A stretch of 64,000 nucleotides of DNA from Gluconobacter sp. Gdi (GTDB taxonomy: Bacteria; Pseudomonadota; Alphaproteobacteria; Acetobacterales; Acetobacteraceae). The stretch is taken from NCBI RefSeq assembly GCF_014132155.1, contig NZ_BLJQ01000005.1, positions 62,001-126,000 of the forward strand, read 5' to 3'. Below the pieces are notes generated by a model. That model made no database searches. It saw only the letters and a list, made by a program, of their open reading frames with translations, and was not told the origin of the DNA. The first letter of the stretch is position 1. The number at the start of each line of letters is the position of its first letter. Shown piece after piece: positions 7,103 through 40,701 of this stretch. Made by a program: the position numbers and the translations under genes.

Positions 7103-7953
7103 GCAGCAATCCTTTTTTCCGCGAGGTCCAGAACGGTTTTGAGAAGCATCATGCGTGTCATCACGCCAAAGCTTCGATCAGGCGGGGTCATCCAGCTCGC
7201 AATCTCAGCAACCGCAGGGTGAACATCGCCTTGCAAAGAGCCTTCGGGCCAGCTCATGCCAACATCAATGACCACCGCTCCGGCGCGAACCATATCAGGT
7301 GTCACAAGATGCGCTGAACCCGCTGCTGCTATAATGACATCGGAATTCCTAAGCACATCCTTAAAATTTCTACTCTTACGATGCAATGACGTAACGGTTG
7401 CATTCCTGCTCTTTCCAGAAAGCAAGAGTGTCGCCGGACCTCCGACAAGGCGCCCTCGCCCCAAAACAGAGACATTTGCCCCTTCCAGGACAAGGCCCGT
7501 CTGCTGCAACACTGCATCAATTCCCCTCACAGTGCAGGGAATAACAGACGGATCTGATGTCGTCAGAGACATCAAATTCACAGGGTGAAGACCATCAACA
7601 TCTTTCTCGGCGCTGATCGCCTGAAGAACCTGTCCCTCATTCAAATGTGCGGGCAAAGGAAGTTGAACCAAAATTCCGGTAATAGATGTGTCTCTATCAA
7701 GCCGCAGGATCTGGTCCAAAAGGTCAGCCTGCGTAACCGTTTCGGACAAAACAATCTTCTGGACTGCAATCCCAACCTTTTTGCAGTCCTCAATTTTGCG
7801 ACTGACGTATGTAGCGCTATGCGGGTCATCGCCGACCTCCACTAGCGCCAGACAGGGAATAATCCCCTTTCGCGTCAACGCTGCGGCCCTGCCCTTGCTC
7901 TCTTCTAGAAGTGTGAGGCCCAGGGCGTCCAGGTCAAAGAAACGAGCAGTCAC
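7099..7953 (-). CDS. folD: FolD-like methylene-THF dehydrogenase/cyclohydrolase, copy 1
   Basis: Bifunctional methylenetetrahydrofolate dehydrogenase/methenyl-THF cyclohydrolase, 284 residues. The catalytic set matches E. coli FolD with an offset of one: Tyr49 and Lys53 in YVSRK, Gln97 in VQLPLP, Asp120 in KDVDGLHP. The NAD(P) domain has VLGRGRLVGGPA, where the common form is GRSxxVGxPxA. The C-terminal PGGVGP motif that closes the folate site is replaced by PDRSFG, so substrate binding is probably altered. It begins the minus-strand run folD-metF-lipase(-MFS) with ATGA overlaps. A second folD lies at 9482 on the other strand with the opposite pattern of losses. Both are likely additional to a housekeeping folD elsewhere. 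Confidence 0.85.
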   Translation of the reverse strand: MTARFFDLDALGLTLLEESKGRAAALTRKGIIPCLALVEVGDDPHSATYVSRKIEDCKKVGIAVQKIVLSETVTQADLLDQILRLDRDTSITGILVQLPLPAHLNEGQVLQAISAEKDVDGLHPVNLMSLTTSDPSVIPCTVRGIDAVLQQTGLVLEGANVSVLGRGRLVGGPATLLLSGKSRNATVTSLHRKSRNFKDVLRNSDVIIAAAGSAHLVTPDMVRAGAVVIDVGMSWPEGSLQGDVHPAVAEIASWMTPPDRSFGVMTRMMLLKTVLDLAEKRIAA

Positions 7954-7981: not shown

Positions 7982-8563
7982 TCAGATGGCTTTCAGACGA
8001 CGAACGATTTTTTTCATAAACGTCCGACGGGCCTTCAACGTGGTGTTGTTCATATTGTAAAGCCCCAAGTAATCGACACTAACACGGCGGTTCATGACAG
8101 CCCGCAGAAAGCGTGTCCCATTCTTCCTTGGCGGATCACCAAGAACGAAAGCACGGTGCCTTGGGCAACCATAAGTGGTGACAGTCATGACCTTTTTGAT
8201 GTTTGTAAAACCGGGAGAAAGTTTTCCGTCTATCAGTTTGAAAGAGACGTCCGGCAGGAAAACCCGATCAAAATATCCCTTGAGAATGGCGGGCCAGCCA
8301 AAATTCCATACGGGATGACAGAGAATTAGCACATCCGTACTTTGAAGGCGCTTCACGTAATCTGCCACGCGATGCTGATTGATGGTGACATCATGGTATT
8401 CAATACGATCCTGTGGACTGAGTACAGGATCGAAATTTTCCCGATACAGGTCCAGAGCGTCGACTTCATGTCCTTCAGCTTCCAGCGTCTGCTTAACAAG
8501 CCTGAACAGCGCAGCATTGAAGCTATCTTCCAGAGGATGGGCAAAAATGACGTGGATTTTCAC
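7982..8563 (-). CDS. NAD(P)H:quinone oxidoreductase, flavodoxin-fold family
   Basis: Cytoplasmic flavodoxin-fold (Flavodoxin_2, NQO1/KefF/MdaB-type) FMN/FAD oxidoreductase of 193 residues. The N-terminal strand KIHVIFAHPLEDSFN, the second element HPVWNFGWPAILKGYFDRVF and the YGCPRH loop are typical of the family. It would transfer hydride from NAD(P)H to quinones or to nitro/azo-type acceptors. It is the first gene of the minus-strand run, 28 bases upstream of folD, and faces iclR across a 150-base region that holds a strong palindrome, so the pair is probably co-regulated. The exact acceptor is unknown. Confidence 0.82.
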   Translation of the reverse strand: MKIHVIFAHPLEDSFNAALFRLVKQTLEAEGHEVDALDLYRENFDPVLSPQDRIEYHDVTINQHRVADYVKRLQSTDVLILCHPVWNFGWPAILKGYFDRVFLPDVSFKLIDGKLSPGFTNIKKVMTVTTYGCPRHRAFVLGDPPRKNGTRFLRAVMNRRVSVDYLGLYNMNNTTLKARRTFMKKIVRRLKAI

Positions 8564-9481: not shown

Positions 9482-10366
9482 ATGACAATCATCTTGCATA
9501 CTTCTGAGCTTGCCCAAAACTATTTGGCCGGCCTCAAAGCACAGATCCGCTCACAGCAGAAAACTCTGGACCATACGCCCACTCTGACGGTCGTCATAGG
9601 CTCTTCTGACGCAGGCCCATCGGCCTATCTGCGCCGCATTGACTTACTGGCGGAACAAGCCGGCGTTAACCTACAAGTTGTTGACGTTGCGGGACAAAAC
9701 GAAAGCAATTTTTGCCAAACAGTCCGAGAGCTTGGCGCTAACAAGAAGATAGACGGAATTCTGATCCTTTTCCCACTCCCGGAAGAAATTTCCCGCCAAG
9801 CCATCATAGACGCTCTTCCCCCGGAGAAAGATGTGGACTGTCTCCATCCACTCAATCTTGGAAGCATCATGAATGGAACTCCATACTTCGAGCCCTGCAC
9901 GGCAACAGGCGCCTTAATGGCGGCAGAACATCTCGTTGGAGATCTGCGCGGAAAAGACTGTGTCATCATTGGCAGTTCGCCCGTTGTCGGGCGCCCTTTG
10001 AGCATGCTTCTTCTGGATCGCGGCGCGACGGTTTCTGTTGTTCACATCGATACTCAGGACATCAAGTCGCATTGCAGGAAAGCGGATGTTCTCTTTTCAG
10101 CGGTAGGAAAAGCCAGATTAGTCACTGCGGACTGGATCAAGCCAAAAAGTTGTCTCATCGACATCGGGATCAGCTATTGCCCGGATGAGGGGCGTGTTGT
10201 GGGAGATGTCGACCTCAAATCTGTCAAAGGTGTCGCGCATACGGTTACCGCAGTTCCGGATGGTGTTGGACCACTTACAACCTGCACCTTGTTGGCTAAT
10301 ACTGTGAAAAGCGCTTTCGATCGAATGGGAGTAAACTTTATATACCCCTCCCTTCCTAGCCAATAA
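9482..10366 (+). CDS. folD: FolD-like protein lacking cyclohydrolase residues, copy 2
   Basis: FolD family, 294 residues. Unlike copy 1 it keeps the C-terminal folate-closing motif (PDGVGPLTTCTLLANT) and the nucleotide motif GSSPVVGRP, plus Tyr49 and Asp119 (KDVDCLHP). However, the catalytic Lys is replaced by Ile53 (YLRRI) and the Gln of VQLPLP is missing (ILILFPLP). In E. coli FolD that Lys and Gln are required for methenyl-THF cyclohydrolase activity, so this copy probably retains at most the dehydrogenase function. It is co-directional with and 9 bases behind iclR. Whether it works as a partner of copy 1, for example as a heterodimer, cannot be seen in the sequence. Confidence 0.85.
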   Translation: MTIILHTSELAQNYLAGLKAQIRSQQKTLDHTPTLTVVIGSSDAGPSAYLRRIDLLAEQAGVNLQVVDVAGQNESNFCQTVRELGANKKIDGILILFPLPEEISRQAIIDALPPEKDVDCLHPLNLGSIMNGTPYFEPCTATGALMAAEHLVGDLRGKDCVIIGSSPVVGRPLSMLLLDRGATVSVVHIDTQDIKSHCRKADVLFSAVGKARLVTADWIKPKSCLIDIGISYCPDEGRVVGDVDLKSVKGVAHTVTAVPDGVGPLTTCTLLANTVKSAFDRMGVNFIYPSLPSQ

Positions 10367-13576: not shown

Positions 13577-13585
13577 GAGGACGCA

Positions 13586-21690: not shown

Positions 21691-21742
21691 TCCTCCCAAG
21701 ACCTGAAAATCCCTGTTTCCTGTATCTTGTGAGTGTATTTCC

Positions 21743-24193: not shown

Positions 24194-24194
24194 C

Positions 24195-26713: not shown

Positions 26714-28060
26714 TCAGGCTGACCCAGCACTAAGCATCTTGCCGGGATTTAGAAGCAACATCGGATCATATCGCTTCTTTATAGCTGCGAGATCCGGTGA
26801 TGCCACACGGTGCATACCGCCTTCCTCAATAGTCACGACATGGGGGTTCGCAATATTCACACCCCTTTTCTCATGTTCAGCAATGATATGATTAAGCCGC
26901 GCCTCATCTGTAAAGCGGATGACCGGCAAAGCGGCACAACTTACATGACCGCCCATCGGGAAGAACTCCAGATGCATCATCAGATCATCAGGGAACAGTG
27001 CACGGATTTCCGCGACTTTTTCCAAAGTTCCGACGGCCGGATAACCACACTGAAGATACGTGTAACCACGATCCTTTTTTAGAACCTGAAGCGTCGTGTG
27101 ATTCCACGTCAACTCGTAAAGCGGGGTTGCCCCTGCCGTGTCTTCAGCTTCTCTGGTGTTAGCTTCATAGCAAAGGTGGCCGTTAGTAGCTTCAGCCAGC
27201 GCCTTGACCGTTTCAATGCCCGCCGGAGCAACCATGAGAATGACCAGTGACGCCCCATCCGGCACGTGCTCGCGTACGGATGCGAAGAATGGCGGCAGGT
27301 CACCGTCAACGACAGACACCAGCTTCTTCTGAATGCCCGCCTGAAGAGCAATATCACGCGCAAAAACTGCCGCTTCTTCAAACGTGCCGAATGAAATGGC
27401 CATATCCTGCCAATCCACGGCTGGCTCAACACCAATTTCCAGCTCGGTAATCAGGCCTGTCGTACCGTAGGTGTGAAGCATGCCCCGCGCATCAGAGCCG
27501 CGAAGTTCGAGAGCTTCCGGATTTTCACCCAGAGTGACAAAGCGGAGCCCCAGAATATTCCCCGGTGACGAAAGACCGCCCCATCGAACAGACCCAATAC
27601 CGCCGGATCCACCCGCAATAAATCCACCGATCGTCGCCGTCCGTTTCGTGGACGGATACATGCGGGCTTCCCAGCCCAGCTCATGCAGAGCACGATCCAG
27701 ATCCAGCATATTCATGCCAGCCTGCACCCGCGCGACACCATCCTTGACCCAAAGAAGCTTATTAAGCTCTGTCATTTCAACAACAGCGCCTCCTTCCATG
27801 GGAACAGCCTGGCCGTAATTTCCGGTCCCGCCTCCACGCGGAGTAAGGAAAGTTTTTGTCTCACGGGCGGCTCGGGCAATGTGAAGCAGGTCCTCTTCAT
27901 TGCGCGGCATAACGATACAATCGCCAAAACAGCTATCAAGCTGCCGCTTCAGAACCGGACTATACCAGTAAAAATCACGGCTTTTCCGCTTCACAAGAGC
28001 TGGAACCGTCTGAACGGGAATATCGCCAAGAAGCGACAGGAAGGTCCCAACAGAACTCAT
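26714..28060 (-). CDS. FAD-linked oxidase (GlcD / D-2-hydroxyacid dehydrogenase type)
   Basis: 448-residue flavoprotein of the PCMH/VAO type. FAD-binding segment PRGGGTGNYGQAVPMEGG with VEMTELNKLLWV, then IGGFIAGGSGGIGSVRWG, and the C-terminal LNPGKML motif that ends GlcD-like oxidases. Such enzymes oxidise hydroxy acids, lactones or alcohols. Its start codon overlaps the creatininase-family stop by four bases, so the two enzymes are made together and likely act on the same pathway. The usual Fe-S partner (GlcF) is absent. Confidence 0.87.
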   Translation of the reverse strand: MSSVGTFLSLLGDIPVQTVPALVKRKSRDFYWYSPVLKRQLDSCFGDCIVMPRNEEDLLHIARAARETKTFLTPRGGGTGNYGQAVPMEGGAVVEMTELNKLLWVKDGVARVQAGMNMLDLDRALHELGWEARMYPSTKRTATIGGFIAGGSGGIGSVRWGGLSSPGNILGLRFVTLGENPEALELRGSDARGMLHTYGTTGLITELEIGVEPAVDWQDMAISFGTFEEAAVFARDIALQAGIQKKLVSVVDGDLPPFFASVREHVPDGASLVILMVAPAGIETVKALAEATNGHLCYEANTREAEDTAGATPLYELTWNHTTLQVLKKDRGYTYLQCGYPAVGTLEKVAEIRALFPDDLMMHLEFFPMGGHVSCAALPVIRFTDEARLNHIIAEHEKRGVNIANPHVVTIEEGGMHRVASPDLAAIKKRYDPMLLLNPGKMLSAGSA

Positions 28061-28893
28061 CGACCAAGATCCTCCGTAATCGGACGCAGGCGATCCAATG
28101 GGTATTCCGCAATTTCTACGAGAAGCTCAAGAAAGCCTTTGATCCACTGATTAGCGACAGCCTCGCCTTTCTCAGCCGTAGCAATGCCAGCATTCCCTGC
28201 CGCGCCTGACGGATGGATGTCATGGGTTAGCCAGCCAAAGCCGACGCGCCCTTCTGCTTCCAGCCATTTGGCGGTCTCAGCAAGCTTTTGAGGCCATGGC
28301 TCGAAATTATCAGCGCGTTCCATCTCAACAAGATCTGGACGCAGGTGAAGCATCAGGGATGTTTCAATATCGCCACCGTGAATGCCATATCGGCGCTCTT
28401 CGTCGGTAAACATGCCATCCGGTACACCGAAACGAGACCAGCCCACACAGACAACAAACATTCCATGTGTCCGGCGGAGTGTTCTGGCAACAATGTCTAA
28501 GATCTGTGGCTGTCCACCATGAGAATTCAGGAGCACCAGCCTCTTCACACCAGATCGTGCAACACTTTCACCAATTTCGATGAGAACCTGCGTAAGGGTC
28601 TGCGCGCTGAGGGTCAGTGTTCCAGGGTAAGCAACATGCTCTTCGCTTTTGCCAACAGCCTGAATAGGAAGTGCGGTCGCGGGGACGGTCGCGGGGAGCG
28701 CCTCCATTGCCTTATCAAGCAGCATTTCGTTGATACAGGCATCCACATAGACCGGAAGATGTGGGCCATGCTGTTCCACCGCGGCCACAGGAAGAATGGC
28801 CACGGTCTCAGGGGGAAGCTGACGAAACTGGCGGGAAATCATGTCACACCAGCGCTTTTTGGGCCAGAAAACCGTCTCGGAACTGCTTGTCAT
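28057..28893 (-). CDS. Creatininase-family amidohydrolase
   Basis: 278 residues. Metal-binding features of the creatininase fold are visible: ILPVAAVEQHGPHLP, the Asp of YVDACI, NSHGGQ, and the Glu of HGGDIETSL. The family hydrolyses cyclic or linear C-N bonds (creatinine, formamidopyrimidines). The start at 28893 has GGAAG eight bases upstream; a longer frame to 29067 has no support. It overlaps the FAD oxidase gene downstream. Because the adjacent plus-strand operon encodes a deaminase of the cytosine/creatinine type and an N-carbamoylsarcosine-amidase-like enzyme, a ring-opening role on a cyclic amide is plausible. Confidence 0.88.
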   Translation of the reverse strand: MTSSSETVFWPKKRWCDMISRQFRQLPPETVAILPVAAVEQHGPHLPVYVDACINEMLLDKAMEALPATVPATALPIQAVGKSEEHVAYPGTLTLSAQTLTQVLIEIGESVARSGVKRLVLLNSHGGQPQILDIVARTLRRTHGMFVVCVGWSRFGVPDGMFTDEERRYGIHGGDIETSLMLHLRPDLVEMERADNFEPWPQKLAETAKWLEAEGRVGFGWLTHDIHPSGAAGNAGIATAEKGEAVANQWIKGFLELLVEIAEYPLDRLRPITEDLGR

Positions 28894-29112
28894 GGGCTTG
28901 TCTTCCGTTGTCTCTTGTGTGGAATGACACGCCCCGGGGAGGACGAGCCAACACATTCCCTGCTCCGATATGATATCATCCCGGAACGAAAAGATAGATG
29001 AAACAGGAAGATCGCAGCTTTTAAAGCATCTATTTTCGACAGGAGCGATGCAAAAAAGAGGGCGCAAATTTCACGGGCATTCCGCTAGCGTTTCAAAAAA
29101 CAGGAGCCAGCT

Positions 29113-29637
29113 ATGTCCGAACTTTCAACACAGTCATTGCCTACGCGCTCCGTGCGCCTGAATCGTCTCTCCAAAACCGTGATGGTCGGGTCTCTGGGAG
29201 TCTTCGGCCTTCTCGTCGCACTTAATAATATTACAGATTATGGTTCAAACTATGCATTTGTTCGTCACGTTCTGTCGATGGATACCACGTTCCCGGGCAA
29301 CAGTCTCAGATGGCGCGCGATCTCGATCCCGCTGCTGTGGCATATTTTTTACGTCCTGATTATTGGCGCTGAATTCGCAACCGGTGCTCTTTTTTCGTTT
29401 GCGGCTTGGAAGATGGCGAAGGCGATCAACATGGATAGTCCGGTCTTTAAGGCCGCTCATACCCTTGTTCCCGTCGCGACGGCCGTAGGATTTCTCATCT
29501 GGTTTTTCGGCTTCTCTGTCGTCGGAGGTGAGTGGTTCGCGATGTGGCAATCCCATAGCTGGAACGGCCAGGAAGCCGCATTCCGGTTTTTCATGACCAT
29601 GTTGGGAGTTTGTATTTTCACTCAGCAAAAAGAGTGA
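29113..29637 (+). CDS. DUF2165 small integral membrane protein
   Basis: 174 residues with four membrane segments (VMVGSLGVFGLLVALNN; SIPLLWHIFYVLIIGAEF; TLVPVATAVGFLIWFFGF; AAFRFFMTMLGVCIF). NITDYGSNYAFVRHVLSMD and the tryptophan-rich third loop match DUF2165, a family of unknown function. A GGAGC ribosome-binding site precedes the ATG. It is divergent from the creatininase-family gene and upstream of the ABC importer operon, so it may be an accessory membrane component of the salvage locus. Confidence 0.82.
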   Translation: MSELSTQSLPTRSVRLNRLSKTVMVGSLGVFGLLVALNNITDYGSNYAFVRHVLSMDTTFPGNSLRWRAISIPLLWHIFYVLIIGAEFATGALFSFAAWKMAKAINMDSPVFKAAHTLVPVATAVGFLIWFFGFSVVGGEWFAMWQSHSWNGQEAAFRFFMTMLGVCIFTQQKE

Positions 29638-29760
29638 GTGCATCCTTTTTGCGCGCACAAATGGGTTAAAAAGGTATCGGTCCAGCAGCAGAATAGCTCT
29701 TCCCACGGAGACAAAAAAACCGTTACGGTCTAATTATAAATGGACGTTGGGAGGCACCTC

Positions 29761-30762
29761 ATGACACCTTACAGGCTTGATCGACGCAGTATGCTCCGCG
29801 GCATCATGGCTGCGGGCGCGGTGTCTTCCCTACCCTCTGGGCGAGCAAAAGCGGCATCCAGGCCCCTGACCCTGCTGACCAACTGGTATGCTCAGGCAGA
29901 GCACGGAGGCTACTACCAGGCCTCCGAAGACGGACTGTACAGCGCTCAAAATCTGGACGTTTCAATTCAGATGGGTGGCCCCCAGATGAACATGACCCAG
30001 CTTCTGATGGCGGGACAATGTGACATCGCCATCATGCAGGGTGAAGAAGCCATCCGCTGTGCAGTGCAGGGCATTCCCGCCGTCGCAATCGCTACGACTT
30101 TCCAGAAAGGTGTTGGCGGCGTGATGACCCACCCGGATATTCACGACATCGCCCAACTCAAGGGCCATCCCATTCTGATCAGTTCAGAAGGGCGAGCCAG
30201 CTTCTGGGTGTGGCTTAAGAAGCGTTATGGCTTCACGGAAGACCAGGCCCATCCCTACACCTATAATCTCCAGCCCTTCGCTTTCAATCCGCAGATGGCC
30301 ATGCAGGCCTTTGTTTCCTCGGAGCCCTACGGCGCCAAAAAAGCTGGTATTCCATTCAATTTCTTTCTCCTCGATGACGTGGGCTACGCTGCCTATGGAA
30401 ACGTGCTGATGGTGTCCCGCAAGACCCTCGAAGAACGTGGCCCCGAGCTCCAGAAGTTCATCGCGGCCAGCAGCGAAGGCTGGAAACGCTATATTTTTGG
30501 AGAGTCCACCAAGGGGGATGCTGCGATCCGTAAAGCTAATCCGGATATGAGCGCGGACCAACTCGCGTGGTCCCGTCAGAAACTCCGCGACATCAAAGCT
30601 CTGGGCGCACCGGGAGCACCCATCATGACAATGAATGATGAGCGCTGGCAGCGCATTCACGACATCCAGCTTTCAGCTCAACTCATTGCAGACAGTCCGA
30701 AATGGAAAGATGGGTATACCCTTGATGTCGTCCACAACAGCCTGGCAACTGTCCCCGCATGA
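29761..30762 (+). CDS. THI5/SsuA-type ABC substrate-binding protein
   Basis: Periplasmic receptor of the NMT1/THI5 family, 333 residues. A Tat-type signal is visible (RRSMLRGIMAAGA, cleavage around GRAKA). The core has LLTNWYAQAEHGGYYQA, close to the THI5/ThiY ligand-pocket pattern. Start at 29761 is fixed by GGGAGG six bases upstream. It is a paralogue of the amber-interrupted gene at 1344-2351 (NWYAQAE/SWYAQAE, GGPQMN/ASPQMN, YNLQPF). Its stop overlaps the ATPase start (ATGA), so it is the dedicated receptor of this importer. Pyrimidine-like or other small ring ligands are most likely, given ThiY. Confidence 0.88.
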   Translation: MTPYRLDRRSMLRGIMAAGAVSSLPSGRAKAASRPLTLLTNWYAQAEHGGYYQASEDGLYSAQNLDVSIQMGGPQMNMTQLLMAGQCDIAIMQGEEAIRCAVQGIPAVAIATTFQKGVGGVMTHPDIHDIAQLKGHPILISSEGRASFWVWLKKRYGFTEDQAHPYTYNLQPFAFNPQMAMQAFVSSEPYGAKKAGIPFNFFLLDDVGYAAYGNVLMVSRKTLEERGPELQKFIAASSEGWKRYIFGESTKGDAAIRKANPDMSADQLAWSRQKLRDIKALGAPGAPIMTMNDERWQRIHDIQLSAQLIADSPKWKDGYTLDVVHNSLATVPA

Positions 30763-31556
30763 GCAGTCCCGTTCTTTCCCTGAGCAGCGTTGAGAAAATT
30801 TTCCCCAACGGCGTGCGCGGTCTTTCTCCTGTCGATCTGAGTGTGGAGAAAGGAGATTTCGTTACGCTGATTGGGCCATCTGGATGCGGCAAAAGTACGC
30901 TCCTCAAGCTCATCGCCAATCTTCATACCCCGTCGGCCGGCACACTGAACTGGTGGGGCGGCGGCTTCAGGGACGTAGGTCAGAAAGGGCGCCGTATGGC
31001 GTTCGTCTTTCAGGACGCAACGCTCATGCCATGGGCCACGATCGTGAAAAATGTGCGCCTTCCGCTTGATTTGGAAAAAGTGGATCGGACAACGGCTGAC
31101 AAGCGTGCCCATGCCGCTCTTGAACGCGTTGGCCTAGGTCACGTGGCCGATCAATATCCCGCACAACTTTCCGGCGGCATGAAGATGCGCGTTTCCATTG
31201 CCCGTGCACTCGTTACCGAACCAGATCTTCTTCTGATGGATGAGCCATTCGGTGCACTGGACGAATTTACCAGAAACCGCTTGGATGAAGAAATGGCCCG
31301 TCTTTGCTATGAAGACGGCCTCACCACACTGTTCGTCACACATGCCCTCCATGAGGCTGCATTTCTGTCCAGCCGCGTAATGGTCATGGCGGCTCACCCT
31401 GGGCGTATTCATGCTCAATACGAAATAGACCGTGGCATTGTTCGCGACGAAACTTTCCGCCTTTCCGATCAGTTCGCCGGCATCAGCAAAGAATTGGCGA
31501 TCCTCCTCGAAGATGCCAGTCGGGACAGCATGATTGGTCAGGAGGCGCAGCAATGA
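30759..31556 (+). CDS. ABC transporter ATPase, SsuB/TauB/ThiZ type
   Basis: 265-residue nucleotide-binding subunit. Walker A GPSGCGKST, Q-loop FVFQDATLMPW, signature LSGGMKMRVSIARAL, Walker B LLLMDEPFGALD and switch His in FVTHALHEA. The signature LSGGM and length match the nitrate/sulfonate/taurine/thiamine-precursor importer class. It overlaps the receptor gene and the permease gene by four bases each. It acts on the cytoplasmic face of the inner membrane. Confidence 0.95.
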   Translation: MSSPVLSLSSVEKIFPNGVRGLSPVDLSVEKGDFVTLIGPSGCGKSTLLKLIANLHTPSAGTLNWWGGGFRDVGQKGRRMAFVFQDATLMPWATIVKNVRLPLDLEKVDRTTADKRAHAALERVGLGHVADQYPAQLSGGMKMRVSIARALVTEPDLLLMDEPFGALDEFTRNRLDEEMARLCYEDGLTTLFVTHALHEAAFLSSRVMVMAAHPGRIHAQYEIDRGIVRDETFRLSDQFAGISKELAILLEDASRDSMIGQEAQQ

Positions 31557-32317
31557 TGACATCCCGTTCTCTCTCGCTCCTTGCTCCCATTACTCTCGGA
31601 ATCATCATTCTGGCAACATGGGAAGCGATTTGTCGCTTCTGGCATATCCCGCCTTACCTGATGCCCTCTCCGTCTGCCATCTGGCGTGCTTTGATGCTGG
31701 ACGGCGTGTCATTACTCCATGCGCTGCTTATCACTCTGGAAATCACATTTGCGGCGCTCGTTGTGGCCGTCCTCGGGGGTGTTCTGATAGCCTTCCTGTT
31801 GGTGCAGAGCCCGCTGATCGAACGGTGCCTGATGCCTTATGTGGTCATCATGCAGGTGACCCCGATTGTAGCCATTGCGCCGCTGATCATCATCCTGATC
31901 CACAATACTCCCCTCGCCCTAACTGCCTGCGCAGCATTAGTAGCGATCTTCCCTGTGATCTCGAACACTCTGCAAGGCCTGCGCAGCGTAGATCCAGATC
32001 TGGCGGCTTACTTTCAGATGCACAAAGCCACCCGCCTTCAAATGCTGCTGCGACTGCGAATTCCAAGTGCTCTTCCCATGTTCATGGCAGGCCTACGCAT
32101 TGCAACAGGCCTCTCACTTGTCGGCGCCATTGTAGCTGAGTTTGTTGCCGGAACCGGTGGCAATTCGGCTGGCCTGGCATATCAGATCCTTCAGTCCGGC
32201 TTTCAGATGGATATTCCCCGGATGTTCGCGGCACTGTTCCTTATTACAGTCGCAGGCCTCGTCCTGTATGCCGCAGCAGCCAGCCTCCAGCGCTTTGCTC
32301 TGAGACATCGCTCATGA
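31553..32317 (+). CDS. ABC transporter permease, SsuC/TauC/ThiX type
   Basis: 254 residues with about six membrane helices and the cytoplasmic coupling (EAA) loop LRSVDPDLAAYFQMHKATRLQMLLRLRIPSALPMF. It forms the inner-membrane channel as a homodimer with the preceding ATPase. It overlaps both neighbours by four bases, the downstream one being the cytosine-deaminase-like gene, so import and deamination are translationally coupled. Confidence 0.93.
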   Translation: MMTSRSLSLLAPITLGIIILATWEAICRFWHIPPYLMPSPSAIWRALMLDGVSLLHALLITLEITFAALVVAVLGGVLIAFLLVQSPLIERCLMPYVVIMQVTPIVAIAPLIIILIHNTPLALTACAALVAIFPVISNTLQGLRSVDPDLAAYFQMHKATRLQMLLRLRIPSALPMFMAGLRIATGLSLVGAIVAEFVAGTGGNSAGLAYQILQSGFQMDIPRMFAALFLITVAGLVLYAAAASLQRFALRHRS

Positions 32318-33600
32318 TTTTTCCTGCTTCTTCTAGCACCGCCCCAGGCGCCCTCCTGAATGCGACTATTCCGGCAGGCCTGCGGCCTTCGTCATTCACT
32401 GATGAGGCCATGCGCTACGATATCGCGCTCTCAGAAGGGAAGATCTCAGATATTCTACCGGCAGGAAATCTTTCTTCCGTCGGGGACGCAATTGATCTGA
32501 AAGGTCAGATGGTCTGGCCATGCTTTGCAGATATTCATACCCATCTGGACAAGGCCTTCATCTGGGAGCGCGCACCCAATCCTGATGGAACCTTCATGGG
32601 GGCCTTGCAAGCCACAACTCAGGATCGAGAAGGGTATTGGACGGACGCAGACGTTGAACGCCGCATGGAGTTCAGTCTGAACTGTGCCTACGCGCACGGA
32701 ACCAGCGCCATAAGAACGCACTTAGACACCTTCGGAACGCACGGGAACCGCGTTTGGCCGCTTCTGCGTCGCCTTCAAAAGAAATGGTCCGGGAAAGTTG
32801 CTCTGCAAGGCGTCTCCCTGACCATGCCTGAGCGCTACATGGGTGAAGACCGGGACGGCATCGTTAGAAATGTCGCCGAGACAGAGGGGGGCGTTCTGGG
32901 CGCCGTCCTGATGAAGCACAACACGATGCCCGAAGCCCTCGAAGTTCTCTTTGGACTGGCCACAGAATACGGTCTCGAACTGGATCTTCATGTCGATGAG
33001 AATGGAGAAACAGACGGAACGGCTCTGGAACTGATCGCCCAGACAGCTCTGAAGCTTCGGTTTCGTCAAAAGATCTTATGCGGCCATTGCTGTAGCCTTA
33101 GCGTTCAAAGCGAGACGCAACAGACGCACATTATTTCCCTGCTCGGCGAAGCCGGGATTGGCATTGTGAGTCTCCCACTTTGCAACATGTACCTTCAGGA
33201 CCGCACCGCAGGGCGTACACCAAGATGGAGAGGTGTAACCTTACTGCAGGAACTCGATGCCGCGGGTATTCCAGTCATGCTTGCCAGCGACAATGTCCGA
33301 GACCCCTTCTACGCTTACGGGGACTTTGACATGCACGAAATTCTTCAAGGCGGTACGAGGATCGGCCAGTTGGATCATACTCACCGTCCTTGGGCGCAAT
33401 CGGTCACAAGCCGTCCGGGATCCTGGATGGGAAGGATCCATCGTCTGGAAAAAGGTGCACCAGCGGATCTGATTATCTTTCAAGCTCGTTCCATGAATGA
33501 ATGGATGAGCCGCTCTCAGGCCGGACGGACAGTTCTCCGAAACGGTCGCATTCTCGAAGCAACTCCCCCTTCATACGAAACTCTGGGAGCTGAAATCTGA
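32314..33600 (+). CDS. Cytosine/creatinine deaminase-like amidohydrolase
   Basis: 428-residue TIM-barrel metal hydrolase of the CodA branch. Metal and catalytic residues: IHTHLDK (His75, His77), LHVDENGE (His226), CGHCCSLS (His258) and SDNVRDPFY (Asp326), exactly the CodA set. Family members deaminate cytosine, isoguanine or creatinine. The gene overlaps the permease by four bases and the next hydrolase by one, so it processes whatever the importer brings in. An N-terminal stretch of about 40 residues is longer than in E. coli CodA. Substrate unknown; a cyclic amidine such as creatinine or an aminopyrimidine is the best guess. Confidence 0.87.
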   Translation: MIFPASSSTAPGALLNATIPAGLRPSSFTDEAMRYDIALSEGKISDILPAGNLSSVGDAIDLKGQMVWPCFADIHTHLDKAFIWERAPNPDGTFMGALQATTQDREGYWTDADVERRMEFSLNCAYAHGTSAIRTHLDTFGTHGNRVWPLLRRLQKKWSGKVALQGVSLTMPERYMGEDRDGIVRNVAETEGGVLGAVLMKHNTMPEALEVLFGLATEYGLELDLHVDENGETDGTALELIAQTALKLRFRQKILCGHCCSLSVQSETQQTHIISLLGEAGIGIVSLPLCNMYLQDRTAGRTPRWRGVTLLQELDAAGIPVMLASDNVRDPFYAYGDFDMHEILQGGTRIGQLDHTHRPWAQSVTSRPGSWMGRIHRLEKGAPADLIIFQARSMNEWMSRSQAGRTVLRNGRILEATPPSYETLGAEI

Positions 33601-35222
33601 TGTTAGCGCTGAAATCTCGCCGGACGGAGACAATGCAAACGCGGGATGGCGTTTCACTGGTTGCTGATATCTGGGAACCAGAAGGAGACGGCCCCTTCCC
33701 CGTTCTTCTGATGCGACAGGCTTACGGCCGCAAAATTGGTACGTCGCTCTGCTACGCACCACCAGAATGGTATGCCAGTCACGGCTATATCGTCATTATG
33801 CAGGACGTGCGGGGACGCGGAGATTCTGGTGGTGAGTTTGTCCTGTTCGAATATGAAGCGACAGATGGCGCAGATACGATCGCCTGGGCCGCATCCTTAC
33901 CGCGCAGCAATGGTCGCGTGGGGATGTTTGGCTTCTCCTTTCAGGGGAGCAACCAACTTCTGGCAGCCGGAGAAAAACCAGAAGCACTCAAAGCGGTAGC
34001 GCCTACCATGATCGGCTGGCAGCTGGATCAGGACTGGGCGTATGAAAATGGGGCGTTCCCGATGCGCGCCAACCTTGGTTGGGCGACACAACTGGCAGCA
34101 GAAACTGCCAGGCTTCAGGGAGACTACGAAGCCCAGCAGGCGCTCTTTGCGGCTAGTCGGGGCATGTCTTTCAATGGGCGACAACCCACAGTGCCTGCGC
34201 ATGAAGCGCTTCTTGCGAAATATAGCCATTATACCCGCTGGAGAGAGACACCTCCGGGAGATGCCTACTGGGACAAAATCTCTCCCGCATCGCGGTTGAC
34301 CGAAATCTCGGAGCTAGCACCCGCAGTTCTACTGATTGGGGGATGGTACGACAGCCACCTGCCTGGCACGCTGGAAGCATATCGAGCTCTGTCCCCCCAC
34401 ATGCCAACACGCTTGATTGTTGGCCCTTGGTCTCACTTTCCGTGGGATCGACATATCGGGGATGTGGACGTCGGCGAGGCTGCCATTACAGACATCGATC
34501 AGCAGCAGATCGCATTCTTCGATCAATATCTAAAAGCTGCCCCTATACCCGACGCGAACCCAGTACGCCTTTTCGATATGGGCGCCTGTTGCTGGCAGAA
34601 CTTCCCGACACTCTCGACAGGGACAGTTCCAAGCTATCCAGTTGGGACGGGTCGCTCCGCGATTGACACACGCGATGGCATTCTGAGCGCGTCGACAGCT
34701 CCTACAGCACCGTCAGAGAGCCTTACTCTCGATCCGTGGCGCCCTTCGGGTCCGTGTGGTGGAAGCTTCGGGTTTCCGGGAGGCCCCGTAGATCGCGCCC
34801 GCACCGATGCGCGTTCGGACGTCCTGACATTCACGACGCTCCCGCTCGAATTCGATCAGCTGCTCGCAGGAACGATCACAGGGTGCTTTGAAATCGAAAG
34901 TGAATACGCCGGTTTTGACCTTCATGCCTGCGTCTCGCGTATCGATCAGAACGGCAAAGTACACCCTCTCGCAGAAGGATATGCGCTGACTGCCCCTGGT
35001 CAGACATCTCTGCCGTTGCGGGGAACATGCGTCACATTGAAAGCCGGAGAAAGATTGAGGCTGTCCCTGTCTCTCTCCTGCTTTCCCGTGTTTCCGATCA
35101 ACCCCGGCACAGGGGCCAGCCCTATTACCGCCACTCTGGACCAACAACAGGTGACGACAGTTCACTTCAAATGCGGCTCCGGAACCTACCTTCTTCTTCC
35201 TTGGATCAAACAGGAAAGATAA
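33600..35222 (+). CDS. CocE/NonD-family hydrolase (X-Pro dipeptidyl-peptidase S15 fold)
   Basis: 540-residue alpha/beta hydrolase with a C-terminal jelly roll. Nucleophile Ser in GMFGFSFQGSNQ, acid in LIGGWYDSHL, catalytic His in VGPWSHFPWD; DVRGRGDSGGEF is the family hallmark. CocE-type enzymes cleave esters or amides such as cocaine or beta-lactam derivatives. The ATG at 33600 shares a base with the preceding TGA. No signal peptide is seen, so it acts in the cytoplasm. It would remove an acyl or ester group from the imported ring compound, but this is inference. Confidence 0.88.
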   Translation: MLALKSRRTETMQTRDGVSLVADIWEPEGDGPFPVLLMRQAYGRKIGTSLCYAPPEWYASHGYIVIMQDVRGRGDSGGEFVLFEYEATDGADTIAWAASLPRSNGRVGMFGFSFQGSNQLLAAGEKPEALKAVAPTMIGWQLDQDWAYENGAFPMRANLGWATQLAAETARLQGDYEAQQALFAASRGMSFNGRQPTVPAHEALLAKYSHYTRWRETPPGDAYWDKISPASRLTEISELAPAVLLIGGWYDSHLPGTLEAYRALSPHMPTRLIVGPWSHFPWDRHIGDVDVGEAAITDIDQQQIAFFDQYLKAAPIPDANPVRLFDMGACCWQNFPTLSTGTVPSYPVGTGRSAIDTRDGILSASTAPTAPSESLTLDPWRPSGPCGGSFGFPGGPVDRARTDARSDVLTFTTLPLEFDQLLAGTITGCFEIESEYAGFDLHACVSRIDQNGKVHPLAEGYALTAPGQTSLPLRGTCVTLKAGERLRLSLSLSCFPVFPINPGTGASPITATLDQQQVTTVHFKCGSGTYLLLPWIKQER

Positions 35223-35227
35223 TTCTC

Positions 35228-35653
35228 ATGCCTTTCGCAAAATGCAGCCCTGATAGCGTTGAAGCCTTCCGGATTGCTCCGGATTCAACCAATTACTTTG
35301 CCATTTTGTTTGACAAGACAGCTGGCGATTACGCGTCTATTGCCGTTGTCGAAATTTTTGAACCTGGTGGCGCAACACCGCCCAACACACACACGGATGC
35401 GGACGAAATGTTTTTCGTTCTGTCCGGCACAGGCCGCGCCTGGTGTGATGGTCAGAGCTGCGAACTCAAGGCTGGCGACGCGCTTCTGGTCAAGCCGGGA
35501 TCCGAGCACGTTCTGGAAAACACAGGCAGCAACAAACTCTATACTTTGACAGTGATGACCCCAGACGAAGACTTCGGAAAGCTGATCCGCAGCGGAATTC
35601 CAGTCAAGCTTGATGCGGAGGATTTGGCGGTCCTGTGTGGAGGGAGTCAATGA
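35228..35653 (+). CDS. Small cupin protein
   Basis: 141-residue single-domain cupin. Motif 1 is PPNTHTDADEMFFVLSGTG with a metal-binding His and Glu, motif 2 is KPGSEHVLENTG. The start at 35228 lies five bases after the CocE-type stop. Its stop overlaps the isochorismatase start (ATGA). Small cupins of this sort are isomerases, dioxygenases or metal-binding accessory proteins; nothing here fixes which. Its place inside the operon shows it acts in the same pathway. Confidence 0.85.
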   Translation: MPFAKCSPDSVEAFRIAPDSTNYFAILFDKTAGDYASIAVVEIFEPGGATPPNTHTDADEMFFVLSGTGRAWCDGQSCELKAGDALLVKPGSEHVLENTGSNKLYTLTVMTPDEDFGKLIRSGIPVKLDAEDLAVLCGGSQ

Positions 35654-36417
35654 GACGTCTGGGCAGTACACACGTCAACAGTTGGGGGGCCACGACGTCT
35701 TCCATCAGCCTTTTACGGCCTGAGCGTCCTTCCCGGCCTGTCAGCGTTCCGTCCCAGCCTCAGGCTCTGACTTTCGATCTCGCTTGTACCGCCATTATCG
35801 TGATCGATATGCAGAACGACTTCTGCCATCCTGATGGCTGGTTAGCATCTATTGGTGTCGATATCACGGCGGCCCGTCGTCCGATCAAGCCTCTTCAGTC
35901 TCTCCTTCCCGCGCTGCGAGAGCATAATGTCCCTGTAATCTGGCTGAACTGGGGAAATCGGCCAGATAAGCTCAACCTTCCTCCTTCTATCCTGCATGTT
36001 TATGACCCCGCAGGTGAAGACAAGGGCATCGGAGCGGCTATAGGTTCTGCAGATCGCAAAGTTCTGGAAGATGGCAGCTGGAATGCTGCGATCGTTAACG
36101 AACTCGCGGTGTATCCGGAAGATATTCACGTTTCCAAGTATCGAATGAGTGGATTTTGGGACACCCCCCTCGAAGGCATCCTCAAGAACCTACGCGTGGA
36201 CACATTGCTTTTCTCCGGGGTGAACAGCGATCAGTGCGTTCTGAGCACGCTGACAGATGCAGCCTGCCTCGGATACGACTGCATCTTTTTGGACGATTGC
36301 TCCGCAACGACCTCTCCTGAGTTCTGCCAAGAGGCAACAGTTTATAACGTTCGCCAGTGCTATGGATTTGTAGCATCAGGCTCAGATCTCACAAAACGTC
36401 TTACTAGCCAAACATGA
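35650..36417 (+). CDS. Isochorismatase-family cysteine hydrolase (N-carbamoylsarcosine-amidase-like)
   Basis: 255 residues. Catalytic Asp in IIVIDMQNDFCHPDG, Lys in VSKYRMSGFWDTPL, and nucleophilic Cys in GVNSDQCVLSTLTDA, the complete triad of the isochorismatase-like amidases (N-carbamoylsarcosine amidase, RutB, nicotinamidase). The start at 35650 overlaps the cupin stop. An N-terminal extension of about 45 residues precedes the fold. It is the last gene of the operon beginning at 29761 and would release ammonia or CO2 plus ammonia from an open-chain amide or carbamoyl compound. Confidence 0.9.
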   Translation: MRRLGSTHVNSWGATTSSISLLRPERPSRPVSVPSQPQALTFDLACTAIIVIDMQNDFCHPDGWLASIGVDITAARRPIKPLQSLLPALREHNVPVIWLNWGNRPDKLNLPPSILHVYDPAGEDKGIGAAIGSADRKVLEDGSWNAAIVNELAVYPEDIHVSKYRMSGFWDTPLEGILKNLRVDTLLFSGVNSDQCVLSTLTDAACLGYDCIFLDDCSATTSPEFCQEATVYNVRQCYGFVASGSDLTKRLTSQT

Positions 36418-36464
36418 AATGAGCGGCTTTCAGGATTAAAGACACCCGAAAGCTGATCATGTCA

Positions 36465-36885: not shown

Positions 36886-39282
36886 TCAGAACCCTGTAGA
36901 AATCGTTCCCGTCATGCTGAAACGCGGTTCAACGTAGAACTGAGCACTAGACCCAGCGCCTGAAAGATTCCCATTCATCAGCCGGACGGCAGAAGCGTTG
37001 GTACCTACACCAACCACGCCTGTCCGAACAATCGAACCTGTTAGGTTGGTGAAGTTCAAACGAATGGTAGGAGACTTTGCATACCAAACTGGCTTGAAAT
37101 GATAACCCAGAGATAGTGTGTTCGTTACGTATCCCGGAATACGCTGATCGCCTGCAATCGAAACGGACTGCGGACCTGTGTAATGAACCGTTGCGTTAGC
37201 GAAGAAGCCTTTATTCACATAGGTCAGGCCGAAGTTTGCCATAACATGCGGTGACAGAGGTGCCTGCGTGCCCTTTGTTCTGAAGGCGGTCAGGTTTCCA
37301 CTTGCATCGGACGCGGCAATATTCGTGTCCATTCGCGCGTTAAGGTATTCGAACGAAACATACGGGCTAAAACCATAGATCGGCTGCGTAGAGAACATGG
37401 CATCAAAACCACGCGCAGTCTGGTTGCCTGCATTAACTACACCCGACTGATTATTGCCCAGGTACGTGCTCAGGAGACGGTTCGTAATGTTATAGTTGAA
37501 GAGATCAAGATCAACGATAACGTACTTATCATTATACCGATATCCAAGCTCTTCCTTGATGGAATACTGGTTCTTGGGCAGCTTTCCAGTGAGGGTAGTG
37601 TTCCCAAGAGCCGATGCAGAAGGCTGACGGAAGTCACCCTCAGCATTGATGTAAACCTGATGGTGCTCGTTGAAATGATAACTGACGGACAGGTGCGGCA
37701 GAGGTGCCGTCAGGTTCTGGCCCATTTGCTTGTGTGCCGGATATGTCGTGTACCAGACATTGGACATCACATATTTGAAACCACCATTGACCAGCAGACG
37801 GTCATGAAAATATTTCGCTGTATCCTGAAGGAAGAGGGAGTGAATTTCATAACCAGTGGTGTTGCCGAAATACGAGCGGGAACCACCAGAATAGACTTGA
37901 TAGGTTGAATCGTTCGGGCTCGGGTTGGAACCATCAGCCTTCGTCACGCTAACAGGAAAGTGCTGAGTATAATCCTGGTTTTCGTACCAGTACCCGAGCT
38001 CAAAATGGTTATGCTTGTCGATATCATAGCCCAACTTGGCTGTAGCACCGACGTCAAGAGCTCCATTCTCTTGGAAGTAGCTTGTTAGCGGCGTACCAGC
38101 AGCAATGGTCTGACCAGACTTAAATGTTGTTGTACCATTGGCAAAGCCACCTGACGAACCATCCCATCCCTGGCCCCAGTTATAATACGGACGCAGATCG
38201 AACTGGAGCTTATCTGTAAGGACGATATGAATTGGAGCGCTCAGAAAGAGCTGGTTCCAATGATCGATATTGTTTTTCCAGTAGTCGTTTCCAGTTGCAT
38301 CAAATCCAGCCTTACGACCGTATCCCTCACCTGTGTCCTTATACTTGTGGAACTGTGCAGCAGTGGGATACCGATCAATTGTGAAGTCTTCGAAGTTCCA
38401 AGACATGAAGAGCTTCGCAAACGAACCATTCTCCCAGTCCTTGCGAATACCGAAATCAAGATGACGGCGCTCGTTGATACCCGCCCCCATCCATGAACGA
38501 GCATGTGTATTCGAAAACGACAGGTAGCTACGAATGCCGCTCTTGCCGATATCACCGGTCTCTAAGCGCATGAATTCGCGAGACAGGTTATTCGTGCCGT
38601 ACGAAAAATCCATCAAGCCGCCGAATGTATGCGACGGATCATGAGATACTTCGTTCATGACGCCCGCGGCAGCAGACGTGGCGGGCAGATCAACGGCGGA
38701 CGAACCCGGCGTGAGGCTGACACTATCCAGATTTTCTGAATCAATGTCTTCGGCCATATAAGCCGCACTGGCTGCAGGTGCACCGTCGACCATAAGAGCC
38801 ATATCAGCATCGGTCAGGCTTCGGCTCTGAATACGCCCACCCTGCATACCAGACGTATCAGGCGTCGAAACGTTCACGCTCGGCAGGTTCTTGATAAGAT
38901 CAAGTGCTGTGCTTGTCGGGCTTTTAGCCTCGATAAATGCCTTCGTGATTGTCTGGATAGCGTAAGGCGCAGTCTCGACACGCATCATGCCGCCACCACG
39001 GCTTCTGGCCAGGCGGGACGTGGACACTGTGACGTGTTCATCCCCCGTCGAGTTGATCGATGCCGGGCGACGCATTTTTGGATGAGCAGGAACAGCTGCA
39101 ATCTCAGCTTTTTGACCCGTCACAGCCTGCGGGTGATGCGCATGAGCTTTATGGTGGACAGCGGCGTTACTCGAAGCTGCCTGCGCGGAAGCAACAAGAG
39201 ACGACGAACCAAAGCCAGCCAAACACGTTACAAGAAGAAGCGCCTTCCTGGACGAGTGTTTTTCAAATCGGTACGGACACAT
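36886..39282 (-). CDS. TonB-dependent outer-membrane receptor
   Basis: About 798 residues. Start at 39282 gives a signal peptide (KALLLVTCLAGFGSSSLVASAQA); the frame runs on to 39363 without support. The plug includes TALDLIKNLPSVNVSTPD, GRIQSRSLTDADMALMVDG and SAVDLPATSAAAGVMNEV; the barrel ends in FSMTGTISTGF with terminal Phe. A His-rich segment (VHHKAHAHHPQ) follows the signal peptide. It ends in a strong terminator and faces the LysR gene. It probably supplies the outer-membrane step for the salvage operon next door, but iron-chelate uptake cannot be excluded. Confidence 0.92.
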   Translation of the reverse strand: MCPYRFEKHSSRKALLLVTCLAGFGSSSLVASAQAASSNAAVHHKAHAHHPQAVTGQKAEIAAVPAHPKMRRPASINSTGDEHVTVSTSRLARSRGGGMMRVETAPYAIQTITKAFIEAKSPTSTALDLIKNLPSVNVSTPDTSGMQGGRIQSRSLTDADMALMVDGAPAASAAYMAEDIDSENLDSVSLTPGSSAVDLPATSAAAGVMNEVSHDPSHTFGGLMDFSYGTNNLSREFMRLETGDIGKSGIRSYLSFSNTHARSWMGAGINERRHLDFGIRKDWENGSFAKLFMSWNFEDFTIDRYPTAAQFHKYKDTGEGYGRKAGFDATGNDYWKNNIDHWNQLFLSAPIHIVLTDKLQFDLRPYYNWGQGWDGSSGGFANGTTTFKSGQTIAAGTPLTSYFQENGALDVGATAKLGYDIDKHNHFELGYWYENQDYTQHFPVSVTKADGSNPSPNDSTYQVYSGGSRSYFGNTTGYEIHSLFLQDTAKYFHDRLLVNGGFKYVMSNVWYTTYPAHKQMGQNLTAPLPHLSVSYHFNEHHQVYINAEGDFRQPSASALGNTTLTGKLPKNQYSIKEELGYRYNDKYVIVDLDLFNYNITNRLLSTYLGNNQSGVVNAGNQTARGFDAMFSTQPIYGFSPYVSFEYLNARMDTNIAASDASGNLTAFRTKGTQAPLSPHVMANFGLTYVNKGFFANATVHYTGPQSVSIAGDQRIPGYVTNTLSLGYHFKPVWYAKSPTIRLNFTNLTGSIVRTGVVGVGTNASAVRLMNGNLSGAGSSAQFYVEPRFSMTGTISTGF

Positions 39283-39792
39283 AACCTTTTGGCTTCTCCT
39301 GCTGCAAAACGATTTTCGTTCCTGCCAGGACCTGATCTCTGTACAGAAGAGATCCTTTCCCATAACGAAAACGTAACATAATCGAGCGCTACCTCAGAAG
39401 GCGAATAATTGCCTCGCACCGACATCAAAAATAGGACACAAGGCAGATCCCGAGCATTTGATGTGTCTTTTACACACGCCTCCACATGTTTTGCAACATT
39501 CCCCCGATAGATCATACCTTGCTCTTCTATTTTTAAAATATATGTTTTATTTCAATCCATTATAGGAATTTTTAGCTCTAAAATTTTCGCTGTTTTTCGC
39601 ATCAGATGTGTGCTGATCACAATCATAATGGCAGCATAAGGCGAACGGCTTCCAGGGTGTGCTCTTAATGCAACACATTCTCTTCCAATTACGAAAACTG
39701 TCGCTATCAGAGGCGTTAAAGATGTTTTCCATCTTTCCTTGAAAGATCTTCGGAACGTTCTTAGTCTGCATCTTTTCGGTGCGAAAACTACG
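39283..39792. other. 510-base divergent intergenic region, TonB receptor and lysR
   Basis: No gene supported; short frames on the minus strand (39547-39815) lack family resemblance. AT-rich around 39530-39600. As LysR regulators usually bind next to their own gene, control sites for the receptor are expected here, but no single palindrome stands out. Confidence 0.4.
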
Positions 39793-40701
39793 ATGCTCCA
39801 TAGCCGCCTTCTCATCTATCTGGATACGGTTGCCCGCTGCGGATCCATCCGAAAGGCAGGCGAACAGCTAAACGTTGCCTCAACGGCGATTAATCGGCAG
39901 ATCCTGACGCTGGAAGATAATCTGGGCACTCCCATATTCCAGAGACTTCCCCGCAAACTGGTTTTGACGGCCGCAGGAGAAATCCTGCTTGCTCACGTCC
40001 GCGAGACGCTCAAAAACATGAACCTCACGCGGCAAGTTTTGGAAGATCTGAAAGGTCTCAAACGCGGGGAATTTTCTATCGCTACGATGGTAGGTCCCAT
40101 CTCGACCTTTTTGCCGCTTGCTCTGGCTGATTTTCACAACACACATCAAAACGTGCGGATCCATGTCAGCACCTACGGCACGCATGATCTCGTCGAGACT
40201 GTCAAAAATGGGCAGGCCGATATTGGCATCGGGTTTGATATTCCCGTGGACAACAGCCTCGTTGTGCAGACGTCGCGCACGGTTCCCCTAGGCGTGGTGA
40301 TGGGCGTCCATCACCCCCTCGCCCATCAGGAATCCATTACCCTCGAAGAATGCAACGCGTGGCCACTAACCGTAGCTGACGCCAGTATGGCTATTCGACC
40401 CCACCTCGAAGATCTCTATGCAGCTCGAAATCTGACCTTGACGCCGGCCATCGAGACCAACTCGATTGAGCTAATGCGCCAGATGGCTCTCTCCCCTGGG
40501 CATATCACTTTCCTGACACCATTGGACATCATTCAGGAGAAAGCCGAAGGAAAGCTCAAGTTCCTGTCTCTCAACGAGCACGGGACCCAACCCCAGACCC
40601 TCTCAATCGTGGCGCGGTCAAAGATTTCCAATCCCTTCACCGCGCTCTTCATTGAACGGGTAGAGTACTTTCTCCAGGATTACACGAGCGCCTCTGTCTG
40701 A
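39793..40701 (+). CDS. LysR-family transcriptional regulator
   Basis: 302 residues from the ATG at 39793; a TTG at 39739 would lengthen it without benefit. Helix-turn-helix SIRKAGEQLNVASTAINRQI with LEDNLGTPIFQRLPRKLVLTAAGE, followed by the two-lobed effector domain (GEFSIATMVGPISTFLPLALADF, ADIGIGFDIP). It overlaps the convergent RNA methyltransferase gene by 22 bases. Divergent from the TonB receptor, it is the likely regulator of that gene and possibly of the salvage operon. Confidence 0.92.
   Translation: MLHSRLLIYLDTVARCGSIRKAGEQLNVASTAINRQILTLEDNLGTPIFQRLPRKLVLTAAGEILLAHVRETLKNMNLTRQVLEDLKGLKRGEFSIATMVGPISTFLPLALADFHNTHQNVRIHVSTYGTHDLVETVKNGQADIGIGFDIPVDNSLVVQTSRTVPLGVVMGVHHPLAHQESITLEECNAWPLTVADASMAIRPHLEDLYAARNLTLTPAIETNSIELMRQMALSPGHITFLTPLDIIQEKAEGKLKFLSLNEHGTQPQTLSIVARSKISNPFTALFIERVEYFLQDYTSASV

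Follow-up and report, generated by a model that had tools for sequence, protein, structure and literature searches.

We analysed a 64,000-nucleotide stretch of the Gluconobacter sp. Gdi genome (contig NZ_BLJQ01000005.1, positions 62,001 to 126,000; hereafter the window) that carries a densely packed set of importer, deaminase, hydrolase and FAD-enzyme genes (Table 1). All of the genes listed by an earlier sequence-only reading, including the adjoining TonB receptor, DUF2165 protein, FAD enzyme and LysR regulator, are present. The overlapping string it described from the binding protein to the isochorismatase was also borne out, with four 4-base overlaps (binding protein/ATPase, ATPase/permease, permease/CodA and cupin/isochorismatase), a 1-base TGATG overlap (CodA/CocE) and a 5-base gap (CocE/cupin). 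The FAD and creatininase-family genes, both on the minus strand, likewise overlap by 4 bases. The span given to the locus, 28057..36417, proved too short, as the island reaches beyond it into a left block with a riboswitch. No tRNA was found in the 64-kb window.

Table 1. Features of the island and their positions in the window.
Feature	Position	Strand	Remark
PRK12393-type (TRZ/ATZ) amidohydrolase, 452 aa	1..1347	-	final 12 bases beyond the window; L183:13989-15347
Second NMT1/THI5-type binding protein, one in-frame stop	1344..2378	-	NMT1 match
Xanthine/uric-acid riboswitch aptamer (NMT1 RNA)	2496..2550	+	RF03054
pcbC-type (2OG-Fe(II)/DIOX_N) dioxygenase, open reading frame	2463..3686	+	DIOX_N, 2OG-FeII_Oxy; frame opens upstream of the aptamer
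Divergent methylenetetrahydrofolate-reductase-like protein	6233..7102	-	TIGR00676, 35 bits (cut-off 293.7)
FolD-type paralogue 1	7099..7953	-	PRK14193, 277.6 bits (cut-off 401)
Flavodoxin-fold NAD(P)H oxidoreductase (NQO)	7982..8563	-	possible partner of the flavin oxygenase
FolD-type paralogue 2	9482..10366	+	G. cerinus synteny ends near 10354
FAD-binding enzyme, relative of the 6v42 flavin oxygenase	26714..28060	-	
Creatininase-family metallohydrolase, candidate cyclic-amide or formamide hydrolase	28057..28893	-	
DUF2165 small membrane protein	29113..29637	+	8/80 isochorismatase loci
NMT1/THI5-type solute-binding protein	29761..30762	+	
ABC importer ATPase	30759..31556	+	
ABC importer permease	31553..32317	+	
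CodA-type deaminase, family PRK07583, candidate pterin-type deaminase	32314..33600	+	
CocE/NonD serine hydrolase	33600..35222	+	
Single-domain cupin	35228..35653	+	75/80 isochorismatase loci
Isochorismatase-like cysteine hydrolase, biuret/triuret/RutB group, candidate ureide hydrolase	35650..36417	+	
TonB-dependent receptor	36886..39363	-	
LysR regulator	39739..40701	+	

The two strongest clues to the function of this island are the match of its FAD enzyme to a flavin oxygenase of folate catabolism and the contiguity of the riboswitch block with the right-hand genes in Gluconobacter cerinus. The FAD enzyme matches the oxygenase 6v42 over its whole length, in fold and in sequence (42–45% identity), and the nearest relatives found for the 6v42/6v43 enzyme lie in operons with the same partner families as the island. 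The conserved gene set tied to this oxygenase spans acetic acid bacteria, rhizobia and bradyrhizobia.

The aptamer scored 37.8 bits against RF03054 (gathering score 36) with its core nucleotides aligned, and is the sole Rfam match at gathering score in the window; among the 150 of 502 first-look candidates that were scored across the genome, no other xanthine riboswitch emerged. Its folding alone is not notable (z −0.68). It precedes the pcbC-type dioxygenase gene, and faces the interrupted second binding protein and the PRK12393-type amidohydrolase. The dioxygenase has no NCBIfam match; homologues 57–70% identical to it occur in 13 of the 17 riboswitch regions from genera other than Gluconobacter. 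The first piece of the second binding protein matches NMT1 with 67.7 bits, and the pieces share 44% and 34% identity with the main binding protein and at most 58% with binding proteins of the Bradyrhizobium clusters. In G. cerinus, window positions 1–10354 and 26730–36435 are contiguous save for about 80 bases, and G. japonicus has the same join (9357–10340 to 26727–36389); the window therefore holds about 16.4 kb (10355–26729) extra at this place, whose edges bear no repeats of 11 or more bases. By eye, the extra segment encodes superoxide dismutase, TetR, aldehyde dehydrogenase and SDR proteins, and it includes a sulfur-type operon (19094–26380) with SfnB-like, NtaA/DmoA-type monooxygenase, TonB receptor, RbtT/DalT-type MFS and TauD genes. 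Elsewhere, the genome of one Comamonadaceae metagenome-assembled genome (MAG; L121) has two riboswitches on a short contig, beside Rieske and PRK12393-like genes. Rfam scans of 12 related loci at gathering score gave T-box and ALIL matches only.

The conserved-neighbourhood check that the sequence-only reading had proposed was run with the isochorismatase alone as query, neighbours being sought by tblastn within about 21 kb of the best 80 of 567 confirmed loci (species genomes), and the gene set was found to co-occur around this enzyme beyond chance. Several of these loci are cut by contig ends, and Bradyrhizobium and Frankia are over-represented among them. Strict counts, which drop high-scoring segment pairs covering less than half of the query or below 30–38% identity, gave (looser counts in brackets) cupin 75 (76), creatininase 51 (52), ATPase 42 (43), permease 36, FAD enzyme 31 (33), binding protein 31 (33), LysR 29 (30), CocE 29 (30), VanA-type Rieske oxygenase 24, CodA 16 (18), PRK12393 protein of the window type 13, NAD(P)H oxidoreductase 8 and DUF2165 8. 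The TonB receptor was present in 2 of the 80 loci by the strict count and in 4 by the looser one (three Gluconobacter, one Gluconacetobacter). An amidase family, partly fused to or beside HpxZ/AtzH-like proteins, appeared in 31 of 100 loci, open reading frames that overlapped better-supported ones having been dropped. A second sample, anchored on CodA, comprised 20 regions (18 genomes, out of 31 in the family that have a CodA match) and contained the ATPase in 16, the permease in 16, the NAD(P)H oxidoreductase in 14, the FAD enzyme in 9, the creatininase in 8, the cupin in 7 and the isochorismatase in 4. The set is modular in its importers, which may be of the NMT1 type, the BMP type (Pantoea, Rhizobium) or an extracellular-solute type (Roseomonas). 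G. cerinus, G. japonicus and G. thailandicus share the locus, and in several further Acetobacteraceae the CodA/FAD and the isochorismatase sets occur together within 20 kb. Control regions, three of them about 20 kb long and taken from other parts of the same genome and two of about 4 kb taken from a plasmid record, held almost none of the set (a PuuE match in one, an ABC pair in another).

Further arrangements were seen around the isochorismatase. A PfkB-family (ribokinase-like) gene lies directly 3′ of isochorismatase, creatininase and cupin at one locus (L101, 12008–12904), and two Comamonadaceae MAGs (L109, L121) carry a three-gene cassette of NMT1-type binding protein, isochorismatase and cupin. 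Cyanobacterial loci (L135, L140, L141, L148, L150 and L154) have kept a distant TRZ-type amidohydrolase with isochorismatase and cupin. In two Paenibacillus and one Nocardioides (L128, L131 and L152), riboflavin synthase, RibBA-like and RibH genes, named by eye, are found no more than about 10 kb from the isochorismatase, and the two Paenibacillus clusters also carry RutA/NtaA-like monooxygenases (by eye). At five further loci (L099, L106, L127, L136 and L146) isochorismatase and cupin accompany amidases and gamma-glutamyltransferase-like proteins (mostly by eye), with a PuuE allantoinase in 4/5 and MlrC-like proteins in 2/5, an arrangement that suggests a variant of the ureide pathway.

The CodA-type protein passes only the name-giving model, PRK07583 (539.5 against 403 bits), and falls below the cut-off of the cytosine deaminase model PRK09230 (119.5 against 483 bits). 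We take the catalytic residues of Escherichia coli CodA to be H61, H63, H214, E217, H246 and D313, and its substrate residues to be Q156, D314 and F316. Across 69 aligned rows, among them the window's own copy and duplicates, the catalytic His and Asp positions are kept in 68–69 and E217 in 67, while the Q156 position is variable (Pro in 30, Met in 13), D314 is Asn in 69/69 and F316 is Arg in 66/69; homologues shorter than 75–80% of the query had been dropped from this and the other residue alignments. The PRK12393-type amidohydrolase scored 666.6 bits against its equivalog cut-off of 543, and 419 against 532 for the 8-oxoguanine deaminase model. It is 57–64% identical to proteins encoded within 10 kb of an isochorismatase in two Gluconacetobacter (L080, L094) and ten Bradyrhizobium loci, and from these matches is probably a deaminase of 2-amino-4-oxo rings of the pterin or guanine type. 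Among known systems, the pterin deaminases Arad3529 and Variovorax PDA (PMC9513972) belong to the cyclic-amidine deaminases, and the endoribonuclease-type gene downstream in Variovorax recalls the RidA gene beside a rhizobial CodA–FAD operon. A Variovorax replicon, searched with the CodA protein in view of a related pterin deaminase, gave transporter matches only. In the literature searched, no mention of PRK07583 was found and PRK12393 appeared in a single paper.

The creatininase-family protein scored 96.6 bits against the TIGR04448 equivalog cut-off of 235. In 62 aligned rows, duplicates kept in, E34, H36, D45 and H120 are invariant, whereas the positions of the metal ligand E122 and the lid residue W174 are Gly in 62/62 (numbering of all six sites assumed). 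The genome has a second gene of this family (G000:C2:267264-267941, L184), with a signal peptide by eye, which overlaps the start of a beta-propeller-like gene. The isochorismatase matched the isochorismatase fold and keeps the triad D53, K163 and C196 in 81/81 rows. The sequence-only reading had called it N-carbamoylsarcosine-amidase-like; it is closer to RutB and the biuret and triuret hydrolases, although it misses both the RutB model TIGR03614 (128 against 378 bits) and the biuret hydrolase model NF050097 (108.9 against 370 bits). It differs from BiuH and TrtA in that the second active-site Lys of biuret hydrolase is by spacing Met166, invariant in 23 rows. The Rut pathway resembles the island in its isochorismatase-fold ureide hydrolase, in the logic of flavin oxygenation and in the presence of RidA in some relatives, but the NtaA-type monooxygenase of the window (20302–21690) scores 64 against 498 bits for RutA and sits in the extra segment. 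The binding protein passes no ligand-specific model, and its best PDB matches are weak, namely 4nmy (E 1.4e-9), whose ligand we take to be thiamine, and the formylaminopyrimidine-binding protein 3ix1 (E 4e-6). Several candidate roles were tried and set aside: sulfonate import (SsuA model below cut-off; sulfur-type operon lying within the extra segment that G. cerinus and G. japonicus lack here), thiamine-pyrimidine salvage (the window has no thiamine pyrophosphate riboswitch reaching gathering score), guanidine (neither the window nor the 12 loci gave a guanidine riboswitch at that score) and the triuret pathway as such (BiuH cut-off missed).

Our preferred reading, to which we give about even odds, is that the island breaks down a heterocycle of pteridine type, in all likelihood pterins derived from folate. 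The substrate, the sequence in which the enzymes act and what each hydrolase does are inferred, as follows. Uptake of the compound would fall to the TonB receptor together with the ABC importer of NMT1 type. The CodA-type and/or PRK12393-type metal-dependent deaminase would strip the ring of its amino group, yielding a 2,4-dione. Oxygenation of this ring may then be the work of the FAD enzyme, assisted by the NAD(P)H oxidoreductase and possibly also by the pcbC-type dioxygenase; the creatininase-family enzyme would open the cyclic amide and the isochorismatase-like enzyme would cut the exposed ureido group, leaving CocE and the cupin to finish the side chain or an intermediate. The right block would be under LysR control, and the xanthine/uric-acid riboswitch is placed for possible feedback on the pcbC-type gene. 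The FolD-type paralogues and the methylenetetrahydrofolate-reductase-like protein would be compatible with folate as the source. As a rather doubtful extension, we also consider that deamination and oxygenation of folate's pteridine ring are followed by its rearrangement or cleavage, with xanthine or urate as the product; the NMT1 riboswitch would then sense the breakdown of vitamin B9 and feed back on it, and many of the NMT1-motif loci would encode pteridine instead of purine pathways. Bacteria were reportedly found decades ago to convert tetraoxypteridine to xanthine-8-carboxylate; a literature term search showed nothing on this.

A number of observations weigh against a pteridine substrate. 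In a tree from which matches with fewer than 390 aligned residues or with a stop had been dropped, the FAD enzyme appears to fall in a clade of 13 Acetobacteraceae/Rhodospirillales rows that is separate from that of 6v42, with 11 of the tree's 43 inner branches left open; given this separation and an identity of about 42–45%, a different substrate is possible. The folate link of 6v42 is taken from its PDB title only; our literature search found no publication on 6V42/6V43 and, by title and abstract start, nothing on a 6v42-type enzyme under folate catabolism and flavin oxygenase. The FolD and reductase paralogues fall below curated cut-offs and, among the regions searched, occur in Gluconobacter only. 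No carboxypeptidase G was noticed, no search having been made for it. The isochorismatase–cupin pair is also found where FAD enzyme and CodA are missing, as in Calothrix and other cyanobacteria, in which it accompanies the distant TRZ-type protein (26–28% identity); it may therefore serve a broader ureide step. Finally, the ligands known for the xanthine riboswitch are purines, as far as the available sections of the source go (PMC7373994).

This last point leads to direct purine catabolism, in which an oxidised, aminated or N-methylated purine would be imported, deaminated and oxidised to xanthine or urate, the right block would break urate-derived ureides and the riboswitch would sense its own pathway's product. 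The only xanthine riboswitch found in the genome sits in the island, among gene types that the available sections of Yu et al. (2020) place behind it (pcbC, NMT1/THI5, tauA, Rieske and PRK12393) and assign to purine oxidation (PMC7373994). A riboswitch operon of Poseidonocella sp. HB161398 has, in this order, importer, pcbC-type, LysR and PRK07583 deaminase genes (the last scoring 571.5 against 403 bits), and the FolD genes could serve demethylation. Within the Acetobacteraceae the riboswitch was present in 7 of 12 genomes with the isochorismatase against 4 of 150 in the family sample (two of these four being carriers), yet the 7 carriers span three genera and the enrichment at genus level rests on 3/7 against 4/102 genera (P 0.005), while CodA showed no significant association with the riboswitch in that family sample (2/31 against 2/119). 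Nor was the riboswitch found in 35 of 49 isochorismatase genomes under stricter filters, by which some weak matches were lost. In 18 riboswitch regions (14 genomes; G. japonicus and G. thailandicus outside the count) the FAD enzyme and creatininase occurred once each, in G. cerinus, and CodA in 3. The genome also has, in one place, a compact set of OHCU decarboxylase, HIUase/transthyretin-family protein, xanthine/uracil permease, PuuE-like protein and an amidohydrolase (guanine deaminase by eye), so that a second urate route is not needed and a purine could be handled without the island. On balance we find the purine route somewhat unlikely. MoCoBD_2 (xanthine-dehydrogenase-type) domains are encoded elsewhere in the genome as well, and TIGR01879 (AllC-like) has two matches over cut-off there; ureidoglycolate lyase (PF04115) was not found in the genome, the E. 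coli control being positive.

That two independent pathways merely adjoin, one of CodA, FAD enzyme and importer and the other a ureide-scavenging unit of isochorismatase, cupin and CocE, appears improbable. It would accord with the rhizobial CodA–FAD operons, whose displayed regions contain no gene annotated as isochorismatase, with the three-gene Comamonadaceae cassettes and with the presence of CodA in 16/80 isochorismatase loci and of isochorismatase in 4/20 CodA regions. The genes of the window nevertheless form a single overlapping string, other Acetobacteraceae hold both sets close together, and the creatininase is common to both (8/20 CodA regions and 51/80 isochorismatase loci). The sequence-only reading had pointed to stepwise hydrolysis, after import by the THI5-type protein, of creatinine or N-methylhydantoin, or of an aminopyrimidine such as the thiamine pyrimidine. 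Its broader idea, a co-inherited set for import, deamination and amide hydrolysis of an N-heterocycle, agrees with the families and the neighbourhood; its specific routes are very improbable. The family names and the weak 4nmy and 3ix1 matches speak for them, but the creatininase cut-off and two site residues are missed, the cytosine-deaminase pocket is replaced at what we take to be Gln156, Asp314 and Phe316, the binding protein has no ligand-specific match, and the FAD enzyme and riboswitch are left unexplained. No creatinase- or hydantoinase-type gene was seen among the open reading frames of the locus, a genome-wide search not having been made.

Set beside published systems, the left block resembles the NMT1-motif purine-oxidation sets in its riboswitch, pcbC-type dioxygenase, NMT1 proteins and PRK12393 deaminase, whereas the creatininase, CocE, cupin and isochorismatase of the right block go unmentioned there: in the main text as available, ‘isochorismatase’ and ‘creatinin’ occur 0 times, and pterin and lumazine are not mentioned (PMC7373994). 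The preferred pteridine route shares its logic with the lumichrome cluster of Nocardioides simplex, in which, according to the sections available, hydrolysis of a pteridine-2,4-dione ring is followed by that of the urea thus exposed and finally by that of the imidamide left over (PMC12746152). The P450, thiamine pyrophosphate decarboxylase and catechol dioxygenase of that cluster were not seen in the island, and the likeness is one of logic. A nitrifier survey describes, in its available part, an archaeal MAG with a creatininase-like gene near a biuret-hydrolase-type gene (PMC12625717). Of creatininase, isochorismatase, cytosine deaminase and cupin, no work in the literature searched brought three together. 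The families themselves are known, and their combination and likely role appear undescribed in the literature searchable here.

Of the cofactors considered in the available sections of a 2025 paper, only vitamin B6, NAD and riboflavin have a well-characterised catabolism (PMC12746152). Even with a purine substrate, the locus points to an uncharacterised isochorismatase–cupin–creatininase pathway. If the pteridine reading is true, the island would provide genes for a poorly known process, the degradation of the vitamin folate by bacteria; folate and pterin breakdown would become testable gene by gene, and the xanthine riboswitch would gain a pathway.

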